A stretch of 64,000 nt of DNA, taken from NCBI RefSeq assembly GCF_019704315.1, contig NZ_AP024597.1, forward strand, positions 558,001 to 622,000, read 5' to 3'. Below, piece after piece: positions 56,510 to 64,000 of this stretch (its first letter is position 1; each line of letters begins with the position of its first letter). The notes beneath the pieces were generated by a model. That model did not search any database, was not told where the DNA came from, and saw only the letters and a list, made by a program, of their open reading frames with translations. Source of the DNA: Stygiolobus caldivivus. GTDB taxonomy: Archaea > Thermoproteota > Thermoprotei_A > Sulfolobales > Sulfolobaceae. Made by a program: the position numbers and the translations under genes.

Positions 56510-56899
56510 ATGGCTTTTACGCAGGCTATTTTAGCCTTTGGGCTCCCTCTCATCTTATTTCTAGCAGCTGGGTATGGTGGATATAAGATATTATCGTTAG
56601 CAGTAGAAGGTAGGTTCAATCCCATCAAGGTTAGCAGGTTTGAAGCTGGGAATATTCCGTTTGGAGAAGGGCGTCTCTGGTTCCCATTACAATATTACGG
56701 CTATCTTTTAGTGTATACTTCAATAGAGCCTATAATTGTCCTTCTTTTCTCTATATCAGAGGCATCATATTTTACATCGTTAGTTCTGTTCAGGAATCTT
56801 TTAATAATAGTCCTTACGACCATAGCCGTGCTCTATCCAGTACTATATTACGCGATAAAGCAAGTTAATATAATACAGTATTGGTTAATTAGAAGGTGA
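56510..56899 (+). CDS. nuoA: Complex I subunit A (NuoA-like)
   Basis: 129 residues with three membrane helices. Between helices 1 and 2 is the NuoA loop with [13 protein letters not shown] and [18 protein letters not shown]. First gene of the quinone-reducing complex I cluster that runs to the end of the window. An AT-rich promoter region lies at about 56430-56470. The next gene is nuoC, not nuoB. Confidence 0.88.
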
Positions 56900-56905
56900 T
56901 GAGTA

Positions 56906-57412
56906 ATGTCAGCTCCTCAGCAAGCTTCACAATCACTTCTATCTAAGCTTATACAAGACGTAATAAGTAAATTTAAGGTAACCGGTAAAGCGGAGTCCGA
57001 AACGAGAGGATTTATAGAAGTGGATAAGACTAAAATTGTAGAGGTTGCTTCGTATTTAAAGGAAGTTGGTTTTGATCACGTAAAGAGCGTCACTGGGATT
57101 GATTATCCTGAACAGAACCAGTTTGAAGTCGTCTACCACATTTCTTCCTATTCTAACCCAGACCTGGCAAAGGTAATCCTAGCCCTAAAGACGAAAACAA
57201 GTTATAAAGATCCCGTCTTTCCTTCCTTATACTCGATCTGGGAGAGCGTGTGGACTGGAGAGAGGGAGACATATGAAATGCTAGGGATAATATTTGACGG
57301 TCACCCCGAATTACGAAGGTTATTTTTAGATGAAGACTTCGAGGGTGTATACCCGTTAAGGAAGAGTTTTAAGTTAAAACAGGAGGGGATGTTTGTTGAC
57401 AAGTCAGCCTGA
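56906..57412 (+). CDS. nuoC: Complex I subunit C (30 kDa-type)
   Basis: 168 residues, soluble arm subunit. The signature [38 protein letters not shown] (cited by its pieces [26 protein letters not shown]) is complete. Start ATG 56906 with GGTGAT ribosome-binding site at 56895-56900. The 3' end overlaps nuoD. Confidence 0.92.
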
Positions 57413-58601
57413 ACCAGCAGGGTTACAAGTAGATATAGTCCCTGTCCAAGGAGAATTAAACGTAGGCCCTCAACACCCTGGATCTGGGCACATGAGAATC
57501 TATGTAAAGTTAAATGGGGACATAATAGAGGATATTGATCTAGATGTAGGCTACGTTCACAGAGCTGTAGAAAAACTTAGTGAAATAAGGAATTACATGC
57601 ACCTTATTCCACTCGTTGAAAGACCAGCTATATTGGACTCCATACACATGAACTTAGGCTATATTCTAGCCGTAGAAAAGATAATCGGAGTGGATGTACC
57701 AGAGAGGGCCCAATACCTGAGGTCATTAGCTGCTGAAGTGAACAGGATCGCAAGCCACTTATACGGTACTGGGATTTTGGGTATATTTTTAGGGCATTCG
57801 ACCGCATTTATGTGGGGTTTTGGTGATAGGGAAGTATGGGTAGAGATACTTCAGGCCCTAACTGGAGCTAGAGTTACTAACTCTTACATAATACCGGGTG
57901 GAGTTAGAAGGGATCTAACACCTGCAATAAAGGAAATGATACAGAAAGCCTTGGCATATCAGAGGAAGAAAGTTAGAGACTGGTACAAGATATTTGTTAA
58001 GAACCCTAACATAAGGAGTAGGTTAGAGAATGTAGGAGTTATGACTAAAGAAAACGCGATAAAATGGGGAGCTGTAGGTCCTAACCTAAGGGCATCCGGT
58101 GTATATTATGACGTGAGAAAGATCGAGCCTTATGCTGCTTATAGTAAGTTAGATTTTGAAATTCCAGTCTATAAAGAAGGAGATGCATATGCTAGGCTCC
58201 TAGTCAGGTTTGAAGAGGTAGAACAGAGCATGAGGATTATAGAACAGATAATAAAAGAGATACCGGAAGGGAACATACTGAGCGATAGGTTCTTTAAACA
58301 GATCCCACCAACTAGGTTAAAGAAATGGTGGGAAGGTCAGAAGAAAGTAGTCTTCCCCGGTTATTATGCTTCTTTCAGGCCTCCTAAAGGTGAAGCCGTA
58401 AGCAGAGTAGAAGCTGCTAGGGGAGAACTTTTATATTACTTAGTCAGTGACGGTTCTCCAAAACCATATAGATTAAGGATGATAACACCTTCTTACCGTT
58501 TAATTTATGTTTTTAAACAACTAGCTAAAGGCGCTAGGTATGCTGATTTGGTCGCAATATATGGGAGTCTAGATTATTTCCCTCCGGAGGCGGATAGGTA
58601 A
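57393..58601 (+). CDS. nuoD: Complex I subunit D (49 kDa-type)
   Basis: 402 residues, forming the quinone-binding site together with NuoB. Seen: [48 protein letters not shown] and the C-terminal [13 protein letters not shown]. As in group 4 hydrogenase-like complex I proteins, hydrogenase-type Cys ligands are absent. Start TTG 57393 or the adjacent TTG 57396; AGGAGGGG at 57381-57388 is the ribosome-binding site. It overlaps nuoC by 20 bases. Confidence 0.94.
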
Positions 58602-59671
58602 TGTTCCCACTCACCTCTATCCCTAGTATAATAAAGTTCTATTTATTTTACCCATCATTTTTTGCTGTAATTATATTTCCAGGGTTAATTTTCACAACCT
58701 TAATTCTACTGCTAACCATTTGGTTCGAAAGAAAAGCTGCGGCTAGGATACAAATGAGAATAGGCCCTCTGTATGTATCCAAGAGGACTGGAGGTATATT
58801 ACAATTAGTAGCCGATGCTCTAAGAATCGTATTTTCAGAAATAATTATTCCAAACGGAGTTAACCCTACATTGTATGTACTAGCACCGGTACTGCCAATA
58901 GCGTTTAGTTTTATACCTATGGTGCTCATACCTTTCTCTTCAATTCCCCAGTCAGGCTCAATACTCTCTATATATTATCACGACTTTTATGATCCTGAAA
59001 TAGGGCAAGGTGTAATGGTCGGCTATTTTGTCCAATACAATATGATCCTTGCACTAGCCGTATTGGCTGTTATCCCTATCTTTATATTGCTCCAAGCGTG
59101 GGCTACTAATAACAGATTCGCCATCCTAGGTGCTGTAAGAGAGTCCTTATTATCTGTCTCATATGATGTGTTAATTGTTATGGCTGTAGTAGCTGTAGCA
59201 CTAGAATACCACACTTTGGATATGGCAAAGGTTGTTAGCTCGGGAATACCTGGTATAATAGCAAATCCACTGGCTGCACTAGTGTTCTTCGTAGGGATGA
59301 TAATGGGGACAGGGAGGTTTCCATTCGACATAGTTGAAGCGGACACAGAACTGGTCCTAGGACCCGCAACAGAGTATAGCGGTTTTCTATTTGTACTAGC
59401 AATGGGTGGGGGCTATATAGCTACTTTTGCTTACTCTTTCATATTCGCTGACCTATTTTTAGGTGGTTGGGCCCCTCTTTCGGGTTTACCCGGTGCGTTA
59501 CTTACCTCTATAAAGGCAATTATTGTTTTATGGTTCTCCGTTTTTCTGAGGGGAGTTTACGGTAGGTATAGGTTAGACCAAGCCCTAAGGGGGTCTTGGA
59601 AATATTTACTCCCCGTAGCTTTTGCTTCTATTTTACTAGGTTTGGTGGTGGGTTGGTTATGGATCAGGTAA
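58601..59671 (+). CDS. nuoH: Complex I subunit H
   Basis: 356 residues, eight membrane helices. Signatures: [14 protein letters not shown], the cytoplasmic/quinone-channel segment [19 protein letters not shown] and the conserved C-terminal [17 protein letters not shown]. The start overlaps the nuoD stop (TAATG). Confidence 0.94.
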
Positions 59672-60186
59672 AAGAGCAAGATAATAATCCGAAAATTAAA
59701 GAATATAAGAAAGAGAACCCGTTTAGGCTTTTTGCGGATCATGTCCAAGCTGTTGGAGCAGGACTAAAGTATATGGTGTCCCCACAGCGGATCACGGTAA
59801 AGTATCCTGAAGAAGCACTATCTCTACCTACGGGCTATAGGGGAATGATAAGGCTGTATAAGGACATATGCATAGGATGTACTCTATGTGCTCTAATATG
59901 CCCTGCTGATGCCATGAAAATGGTAACAGAGGAAGGAAAGAAGTTACCTAGTATAAACTACGGCAGGTGTGTATTCTGCGGCTTTTGTGTCGACGTATGC
60001 CCGGTTGACGCACTTAAGGAGACCAGAGTCCATGATGCGACTTTTACCAACAGGAGGGATCTAGTGTTTAGGCCGGATAGGTTTGACCAGGATTTTGATT
60101 CTCCAGCTCCGGTGGAAGGCGTAGTTAAAAAAATGAAGACAGTAATAGATGAGAAAAAGGGGATAAAGTATGTACCAGACGAATGA
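59659..60186 (+). CDS. nuoI: Complex I subunit I (8Fe ferredoxin type)
   Basis: 175 residues. Two 4Fe-4S motifs, [12 protein letters not shown] and [12 protein letters not shown], pass electrons to the quinone site. The frame stays open to 59596, but ATG 59659 begins the family-like sequence and keeps the overlap with nuoH to 13 bases. Overlaps nuoJ by 17 bases. Confidence 0.93.
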
Positions 60187-60679
60187 TTTCCAACTTAGCT
60201 TGTTTATAATTTTCTCTGTCTTTAGCATAGCCTCCGCTTTATTTATCACTAGGCAAAGGAATGTCTTCTACGCCTCAGTAGGGCTAGCTTTTTTAGGTAT
60301 AGCAACTGCTGTCCTTATAGCTCTACTAAACCCTTCAGCATATGCCTTTTACTCCGCCTTTCACTTATTCCTATACGTAGGTTCAGCAGTAGTATTCTTG
60401 TCTATTTCCCTAGTTGTCTTCAGGGGTCTAGAGGTAAGAGAAGTGCAAATCCCTTGGGCGGGACTTGTAGCACTAGTAGTTGGTGCTCTAACGTTTTTAG
60501 GACTATTCGTGACTTTTACCTCATTAACTGGTATAAAATACACCCCTGTAACGTTTAATCTAGTCCAATTTGCGAACACTTTTTTACAACAATACTGGTT
60601 CCCTACTGTAATTTTAGTCATAGCCCTCCTCACGACTATGATAGAAGCCCTATCTCTAGCTAGAGGTGAAAGATCGTGA
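60170..60679 (+). CDS. nuoJ: Complex I subunit J
   Basis: 169 residues with five membrane helices; helix 3 carries the usual Tyr/Gly-rich bend ([21 protein letters not shown]). Position between nuoI and nuoK confirms identity. Overlaps nuoK by 4 bases. Confidence 0.88.
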
Positions 60680-60960
60680 TCTTAGGAGATCTTGGTCTGG
60701 TAATAGCTATTATTCTTCTAGCTATAGGTGCTTATGGCCTTCTCAATAGTAAAAACATAATCAGGGTCTTACTCTCTTCCGAGATAATAGTAAACGCCTC
60801 GATTTTAATGGTATTTTCAGCCTCATCTATCCTCAACCATGTATATTTACCAATATTTTTTTCTATTTTTGCCATAGGTATGGCTCTAATAGAAGTAGTA
60901 GTCGCATTCGCGGCTATTTTCCTCTATTATAGGACAAAGGGTAGTCTGGAGGTAGAGTAA
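60676..60960 (+). CDS. nuoK: Complex I subunit K
   Basis: 94 residues with three membrane helices and the conserved acidic residues for proton transfer, Glu in [12 protein letters not shown] and Glu in [16 protein letters not shown]. Start GTG 60676. Only three bases separate it from the next gene. Confidence 0.9.
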
Positions 60961-60963
60961 GGG

Positions 60964-63900
60964 ATGATATCCTTATTTATTTTCATAATATCTTTCGCTC
61001 TTGCTTCTATGGCGTTTTTTATTAAAGGGAAAGGGAGCGGTATAGCCTCAGCACTTTCAATCCTAGTCAATATTTACTTTGTTTTTAGGTACGGGTTATA
61101 CTATACGTTTTATGTCGCTAGTGACATAGGCAGTTTTGGGTTCACGGTAAACGACTTTAACTACGCCTTTATAGTCACGATAATATTAGTGACGTTAGTC
61201 ACCGTGTTCTATTCTACCAGATATATGGAGAAGAAATTCCACGAAATAGGAAAAGAAAGCTGGAGCCTTTATTACGGTCTCTACAGTCTATTCGCTATCT
61301 CGATGCTATATGTGGTAGTTTCCACTAACCTCCTAGAACTTTACGTATTTTTAGAGATTGCATTAGTGACGTCATTCCTCCTAATACTCCTCTACGGTTA
61401 CGGTGATAGGAGGAGAATAAGCTTAATGTATTTTATATGGACACATATAGGTACTATACTTACTTTAACATCTATTGTCATCCTCGGGCTAACTACAGGA
61501 AAGATGGACATATACTCGTCATACGGCATACCTTACGATTATTCATCGCTCTCTCTCGCTGAGCTAATATTTCTAGTAGGCATCATAGGTATGTTGGTAA
61601 AAGGTGCTATAGCCGGTTTCAACATATGGTTACCATATGCCCACGGAGAGGCCCCTACACCTATATCTATCCTCCTCAGCCCTAACATGGTGGGGCTAGG
61701 GATATACGTCGTAATGGTGTATTACTACCTCTTCCCTGCATTTTCATACCTTGCTCCTATCTTCATAGGCTGGGCTATAATCACCATGATATACGGGGGG
61801 CTTAACGCTTTAGCACAGAGAGATTTTAAGAGGTTCTTGGCCTATTCTAGCGTCTCCCAGATGGGTTATATGTTGCTCGGGGCATCCATTTCCCTATACT
61901 TAGGCCTGAAGTCTACAGTTTTAGAATTACCTTTGGGTGTAATAGCGTCAGTCCTTATCTACGTCTCTCATGGGCTGGGTAAAGCCCTACTCTTCATGAG
62001 TGCGGGTGCGTCAATAACTGAACTTGAAGAGCGTGATATAGAAAAGTTAGGAGGCTTATACTTAGTGTCCCCCCTACACTCGACCTTAGCATTTATTGGA
62101 CTACTTAACATCCTAGGGCTTCCTCCTTCGATCGGCCTCGTTAGCGAAGTACTCCTCTTATTGGCTGTAGGGCAAATGGCTGGTATAGTAGGTTTAGGCT
62201 GGCTCATAGTCCTTGTGGCGTTGTTGATGATAGCTATAGGTATTTCGTCAGCTTACGGTACCTACCTATTTAAGAAAGTTTACAGCGGGCTGAAAGAGGT
62301 AAAAGTAGACCTTGACAAGGCGGTCGAGTATTCAATACCTATGGTTATAATCGCTGTAACAAGCGTCTTTTTCTTCTTCTTCCCACAATTCCTAGTACAC
62401 TCCCTCAACAATTTTATACAGAGTACGCAAGGTTCCGCCGTTTCCTTATTCCTTATAACTACACTACCCGCATTAGGCTCCCTAATAGTACTAGTCTTAC
62501 CTAGGTCGGTTAACCAGGACTTGAGAGGTGCAATAGTGACGCTTCTGATAGGTATTTCAATGGTCTTATCAGTCTCATCTCTTATATCATCAGTTGGTAG
62601 CCCCCTATTTACCCAAACACAGTCTTACACTTTATTCGGTTATTTTGACTACAGTTCTTCTCTCCTCCAGAGCATTATCGGTCTTTTCGTGTCAGGGCTA
62701 GCTTTCTTCATTTCCCTCTATAGTATAGGCTATATGAAGGAGGACAGTGTATTAAGAAGGTATTGGGGGTTCTTTGGATTCTTCGTGTCTTCTATGTTAA
62801 CTGTAGTCTTTGCTGACAACGTACTACTATTTTTGGCAGGCTGGGAAGGGACAAGCCTTGCATCTTATGGTCTAATAAGCTATTGGTTAGACGATAACGA
62901 GAGAAATGTAGTAGGGGACTTCGGGAGAAAAGTCCTAGGTATCGAGTACTTGTCCAGACCTACGACGAGCGGAATAAGGGCTATGATATTTACGAGATTG
63001 GCTGACGTAGGTCTTATAGTGGGACTCGGTTACTTGTTATTACTGACTACTGGTACCCACTACGCCGGGGTAACCCTCCTTTATCAAGGGTTATTTACCG
63101 CTATCCACACAGTTTACTTCTTACCTTACGGTTGGGTCATACTCTTCCTCATCCTTTTAGGAGGGTTAGGGAAGAGTGCGCAATTCCCCCTGACACAGTG
63201 GCTTTTAACTGCTATGACAGGTCCAACTCCGGTGAGTGCTCTCATACACGCTGCTACTATGGTAAACCTAGGCGCTATTCTAACCTTCTTAATATATCCC
63301 TATTTCCTCTACCCTAACCCACAGACCACAGTCCTGATGGGTATAATGGTGGGGGTAACCGTGTTTACAGCTATCTATACTAGTACTGGGGCCCTAGCAG
63401 CTAACGAGCAGAAGATAATCTTAGCTTACTCTACAGCCGACCAGATATCTCTAATGATACTGTCATCGTCGGTAGGTGCTCTCCTAGCTTCCACTACAGG
63501 TAACCTAAGCTTTTTGAGTTCAGGAATTATTGTTGGTCTAATTCAGATGATAGCCCACGGTTCTTATAAGGCGTCGCTTTTCATGAACGCGGGGAGCGTT
63601 ATCCATTACACTGAGAACAGATACGTAGGTGTATTTAAATCACTGTATAAGAGGTTGCCCGTAGTCTTTGTACTACAGTTAATAGCTGCGTTAAACTTAG
63701 CCAGTATTCCTCCGCTTATAGGTTTCTGGGCCCATAACCTAATAGGAAACTTAGTAGCCAATACCAGTCTTATTACGCTGTACGCGTTAGTGGAGTTCCT
63801 CGGTGGGATATACATTATAAGGTATATTGTAAAGACGTTCACTTGGAGAAGAGGTGAAGATCTCCATGAAGAAGGCCATGTACACTTACTTATGGTAGTG

Positions 63901-64000
63901 GCCCCTACATTTACGGTACTAGCTTCTATTATTTTAGGAGGTGTTTTTGCGTTTTATCTACAGCCCTATTTTATCCACTTAGGTCTTTCACCTTCTCTAA
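60964..64000 (+). CDS. Fused antiporter-like complex I subunit: NuoM/N-type domain joined to NuoL-type domain (3' end outside the window)
   Basis: One uninterrupted frame of at least 1012 codons, read codon by codon from ATG 60964 to the window end with no stop. The first part (about 1-490) is a Mrp-antiporter/NuoM-N module: Glu in [12 protein letters not shown], Lys in [48 protein letters not shown]. The second part (about 545 to the end) is a NuoL module: [21 protein letters not shown] (conserved Glu near residue 628), [20 protein letters not shown] (conserved Lys near residue 736), [10 protein letters not shown] and [11 protein letters not shown]. Normal NuoL is about 600 and NuoM/N about 480-500 residues, so the chain is a fusion. 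Each module should pump protons, driven by quinone reduction. Confidence 0.9.

Follow-up and report, generated by a model that had tools for sequence, protein, structure and literature searches.

A family-wide gene fusion joins NuoM-type and NuoL-type antiporter modules in Sulfolobaceae

NuoM and NuoL are neighbours in canonical complex I, and NuoM is believed to end on the same (outer) face on which NuoL begins. The subunits NuoM, NuoL and NuoN are each thought to hold a proton pathway whose distal residue releases the proton outward, and it is debated which of these antiporter subunits release protons and whether release is confined to the outermost subunit, NuoL/ND5 (PMC9271201). Fusions of complex I subunits encoded by adjacent genes are reported in two papers, namely NuoCD, NuoBCD and FqoBC (PMC12361115, PMC11237513); those fusions link hydrophilic Q-module subunits, whereas the gene described here links two polytopic membrane antiporter subunits. 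The section on respiratory chains in the archaeal fusion survey does not describe an M-L fusion (PMC11237513). In the Sulfolobaceae, archaea that thrive in hot acid, a gene is labelled 'nuoLM' in a figure legend of a 2024 paper, a name suggesting that this is the fusion described here, and the passages found there give the label only, with no discussion of the fusion (PMC11323534). Beyond this label, no description of an M-L fusion, or of the His substitution reported below, was found in the open-access literature, from which many journals are missing.

The locus lies in a window of 64,000 nucleotides from Stygiolobus caldivivus (C1:558001-622000 of the complete 2.96-Mb genome). From an ATG at 60964 a single frame, nuoML, stays open for 1012 codons to the end of the window, and the complete genome (2,958,410 bases, one contig) places its stop 377 bases farther on, so that the whole protein has 1137 aa. 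An earlier note on this DNA had recognized a NuoM-type and a NuoL-type module in one frame of more than 1000 codons, and this reading is borne out: PF00361 matched twice within the frame in a Pfam search of the genome (160 and 110 bits), while NCBIfam NuoM-like models aligned to residues 58-488 and NuoL models to residues 495-998. The M module scored 235 bits with NDH_I_M over residues 58-488, where the curated whole-protein cut-off of 263.8 was not reached. The L module (PRK06590, 388.8 bits in NCBIfam) is full-length including its C-terminal part, aligning from residue 491 of the query over 5-643 of 647 and, in a comparison with the solved structure of Mycobacterium NuoL (8e9g_L), over residues 8-625 of 629 of that protein (E 6.7e-41). 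For the 1012 residues encoded in the window, AlphaFold with a 4-sequence alignment gave a model too poor to use (pLDDT 39, pTM 0.29).

Table. Features of the nuo operon and of the fused gene, in window coordinates (fractions: fused proteins with the residue)
Feature	Position	Strand	Remarks
nuoA	56510..56899	+	upstream of the fusion gene
nuoC	56906..57412	+	directly after nuoA; operon without nuoB
nuoD	57393..58601	+	upstream of the fusion gene
nuoH	58601..59671	+	upstream of the fusion gene
nuoI	59596..60186	+	start as listed (earliest possible) overlaps nuoH
nuoJ	60170..60679	+	upstream of the fusion gene
nuoK	60676..60960	+	upstream of the fusion gene
nuoML fusion gene (nuoLM)	60964..64000, 377 bases more past the window; genome C1:618964-622377	+	1137 aa
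NuoM-type antiporter module	60964..62397	+	residues 1-478; TM14 ~459-478
Linker, M-module TM14 to L-module TM1	62398..62430	+	~11 residues (479-489); variable; conserved Met absent
NuoL-type module	62431..64000, continuing past the window	+	residues 490-1137; TM1 ~490-508
M-module TM5 Glu E131 (E. coli NuoM E144)	61354..61356	+	29/29
M-module TM7 Lys K213 (E. coli NuoM K234)	61600..61602	+	29/29
M-module TM8 Gly G244 at E. coli NuoM central Lys K265	61693..61695	+	order-wide
M-module TM10 Lys K340 at NuoL central Lys K342 position	61981..61983	+	29/29
M-module TM12 distal Glu E395 (E. coli NuoM E407)	62146..62148	+	29/29
L-module TM7 Lys K737 (E. coli NuoL K229)	63172..63174	+	29/29
L-module TM10 central Lys K869 (E. 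coli NuoL K342)	63568..63570	+	29/29
L-module TM12 His H924 for distal exit Lys K399	63733..63735	+	codon CAT; next residue Asn, not D400

The M-L fusion is real and family-wide in Sulfolobaceae. Of 31 genomes of this family (named members of the sample include Metallosphaera yellowstonensis, Ca. Aramenus sulfurataquae and Sulfolobales archaeon Acd1), 29 have an uninterrupted fused frame of 1126-1158 aa, the exceptions being a fragment at a contig end (G017) and a draft genome that is 71% complete (G019). Pairwise identity across the 29 fused proteins is 50-99%, and those of the 28 relatives match the window protein at 55-84% identity over essentially its full length. Being family-wide and already labelled, the fusion is less surprising than the earlier note implied.

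Unfused counterparts from the same order indicate how the gene probably arose. At all 20 loci of a comparison set drawn from five other families of the order, separate genes occur in the order NuoM, NuoL, NuoN, with NuoK before NuoM where it was detected. The products of these genes are 502-523 aa for NuoM and 651-708 aa for NuoL, and the M stop lies near the L start, with a few-base overlap at several loci (e.g. L051, L052, L063, L065). The M-L order is also found in more distant members of the phylum, and the locus tags of Nitrososphaera run in that order as well (PMC11561398); the E. coli genes, in contrast, are separate and ordered L-M-N, so that L precedes M. Because unfused relatives have M and L adjacent in the same order and often overlapping, the simplest account, and the most likely one, is that the ancestor of the Sulfolobaceae lost one stop/start junction, a deletion or an in-frame mutation having erased the boundary between nuoM and nuoL. 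No other M-L fusion occurred among the matches listed for a 200-genome sample of the phylum. One candidate for a second fusion, in a genome of another family (G238, open frame 1016), was rejected, as the gene is 559 aa from its start codon and the rest is a long stop-free stretch upstream.

The same adjacency means that a single sequencing or assembly error concealing a stop and a start between two normal genes could look like a fusion. We regard this explanation as having practically no chance of being right, since 29 independent genomes, diverged as far as 50% in pairwise identity, hold the same open frame with in-frame variation in the length of the linker; the conservation of the frame in the family likewise excludes the missed frameshift or stop near 62390-62640 that the earlier note had raised. 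A genuine fused gene might still yield separate NuoM and NuoL proteins, either from an internal start or by cleavage of the linker, which is short and variable and whose cutting would separate two modules that function apart elsewhere. In the alignment, both helices at the junction, TM14 of M and TM1 of L, are intact around the linker, and Met occurs there only sporadically and is conserved at no position. The absence of a conserved start codon makes hidden internal initiation less likely, and membrane subunits of complex I are not known to be processed at a position of this kind; on balance, we consider the production of two proteins from the one gene to be quite unlikely.

The identity of the first module was also weighed, as the best match to it among solved structures is MrpA, and some Mrp A and hydrogenase-4 D models outscore NuoM on it. 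Moreover, with E. coli NuoL, NuoM and NuoN as residue rulers, it has the central Lys on TM10, like NuoL, and not on TM8, like E. coli NuoM: the position of the TM8 Lys (K265) is occupied by Gly in 29/29 fused proteins and also in the NuoM of all 20 unfused loci of the order. These features could reflect an Mrp-type or hydrogenase-type antiporter recruited beside NuoL, which would make a functionally different complex. Against this idea, the module is located in a complete nuo operon with nuoK and nuoL on either side, it carries the NuoM-type distal Glu (E407) in 29/29, and its unusual traits are common to the unfused NuoM of the order and to most NuoM sampled in the phylum, a TM10 Lys in place of the TM8 Lys among them. 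From the shared traits, the operon position and the distal Glu, the first module is NuoM-type by sequence, the ordinary NuoM of this phylum though not of the E. coli type, and recruitment from another antiporter family appears very improbable. The loss of the central TM8 Lys was considered as a consequence of fusion and this was rejected, since all unfused relatives in the order have Gly there too and a TM10 Lys is present. The equivalents of E. coli NuoM E144, K234 and H348 are kept in every fused protein.

The second module retains the canonical charged residues of NuoL except at the distal exit. The equivalents of E. coli NuoL E144, D178, K229, H254, H338 and K342 are invariant in the 29 fused proteins, and E628, D681, K737, H762 and K869 of the window protein are among these residues. 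The distal exit Lys of NuoL (K399) is replaced by His in 29/29 (K399H), and the following position, D400 in E. coli, is N, S, D or Q. Lys occupies the K399 position in 20/20 unfused relatives of the order and in 34 of 41 further NuoL-type proteins of the phylum, the other seven having His. All seven belong to a single family, coded f29, presumably Caldivirga/Vulcanisaeta, whose habitat is likewise acidic hot springs. The f29 proteins (L106, L107, L117-L121) have Tyr at the H334 position in addition to the His, and their genes are in an unfused context. In a tree, f29 groups with a Lys-bearing family (SH-aLRT 98) and K399H needs two changes, although a single clade of His-bearing proteins, uniting the fused family with f29, was not rejected (AU p 0.088). 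The same substitution in this second, presumably acid-dwelling family would make K399H convergent. Acid habitat by itself was rejected as the cause of K399H, given that some lineages presumed to be Acidilobus and Caldisphaera (L056, L048) keep the Lys.

The PROPKA pKa calculated for E. coli K399 near D400 is low, 6.2 (PMC9271201), so a His at this position, often without the Asp, would be chemically reasonable. The His at the L exit may be a still protonatable exit site, possibly tuned for a very acidic exterior. A more specific proposal, that K399H and the frequent loss of D400 are an adaptation for proton release against a very large pH gradient, with the M-L link perhaps stabilizing the distal arm in hot acid, is speculative and in our estimation rather doubtful. 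The fusion and K399H are confounded in a single clade, which leaves no basis for linking one causally to the other.

The rest of the operon and genome point to a complete complex-I-like enzyme. The earlier note had suggested that the fusion may accompany loss of a separate nuoM or nuoN gene and had proposed looking past position 64000 for separate nuoL, nuoM or nuoN genes. As regards nuoM this was correct: the complete genome has five PF00361 modules, of which two are in the fusion, one is NuoN and two belong to a hydrogenase-4-type cluster, and among these modules there is no separate nuoM or nuoL. The nuoN gene, however, has been kept as the next gene, encoding 464 aa and starting 5 bases downstream of nuoML (L006:10383-11777). 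Its product retains K217, K247 and K395; the TM5 Glu (E. coli E133) is absent from NuoN, the position being Ala or Gly in 29/29 fused-family genomes and Ile, Leu or Thr in 20/20 relatives. At the other end of the operon, nuoA and nuoC are directly adjacent without nuoB (56899-56906), in the window as well as at three other loci (L043-L045), and nuoB lies between them in those unfused relatives that were checked. The NuoB gene is located outside the operon (C1:2681043-2681657; L009:1357-1971), encoding 204 aa and scoring 169.6 bits against a cut-off of 116. Read from its earliest possible start, nuoI shares 76 bases with the end of nuoH (59596-59671), and its true start is probably a downstream internal ATG.

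With the distant NuoB gene, the 11-subunit core is complete, NuoA, B, C, D, H, I, J, K, L, M and N all being encoded. NuoF (PF01512), the only component of the NADH module NuoEFG that was searched for, had no match in the genome, and we therefore consider the enzyme to be an 11-subunit complex-I-like one. The absence of NuoF is shared with the archaeal 11-subunit Fpo/Fqo type and the unfused Nuo of Thermoproteota, as is the K-M-L-N order in relatives; the fusion of M and L and the position of the NuoB gene outside the operon set the Sulfolobaceae locus apart from them. A second complex-I/hydrogenase-4-like cluster, at C1:1633274-1639731 (L007:3274-9731), encodes HyfF-, HyfB- and NuoB-type proteins and a NuoD/large-subunit homologue. 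The homologue lacks CxxC pairs, and its complex is thus probably of the Ehr type, with the nickel site absent.

Taken as a whole, these features make it very probable that the gene encodes both distal antiporter-like subunits of a complex-I-type quinone oxidoreductase of archaea in a single chain, with NuoM ahead of NuoL. Relative to bacterial and mitochondrial NuoM and NuoL (E. coli; ND4, ND5), the fused protein has the same modules, the canonical charged residues, the operon context and the neighbouring position in the membrane arm, and it differs from the E. coli subunits in the central Lys of M and the exit residue of L. Since most pathway residues are kept, an ordinary distal half-arm built as a single polypeptide is the best reading. 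The chain would fold into two adjoining antiporter modules, placed as usual at the distal end of the membrane arm, and together with NuoN it would pump protons as in other complex I. If M ends and L begins on the outer face, as is believed for the canonical subunits, a short linker would leave the topology unchanged. The suggestion in the earlier note that a covalent link would fix the order of M and L in the arm is plausible as far as the link goes; the order itself is unchanged, as M and L are canonical neighbours, a point that the note also makes, and the link probably only ties existing ones together. Fusion would secure a fixed 1:1 stoichiometry and co-assembly, and it may make the arm more stable in heat and at a low external pH.

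On its own the fusion is of modest interest; what should concern complex I specialists is the K399H, invariant in the outermost pump module. For the evolution of complex I, nuoLM adds a fusion of membrane subunits. Sulfolobus acidocaldarius is a genetically tractable host, and a natural enzyme with M and L tied and a His at the exit would provide a ready-made test of the link and of the exit residue.
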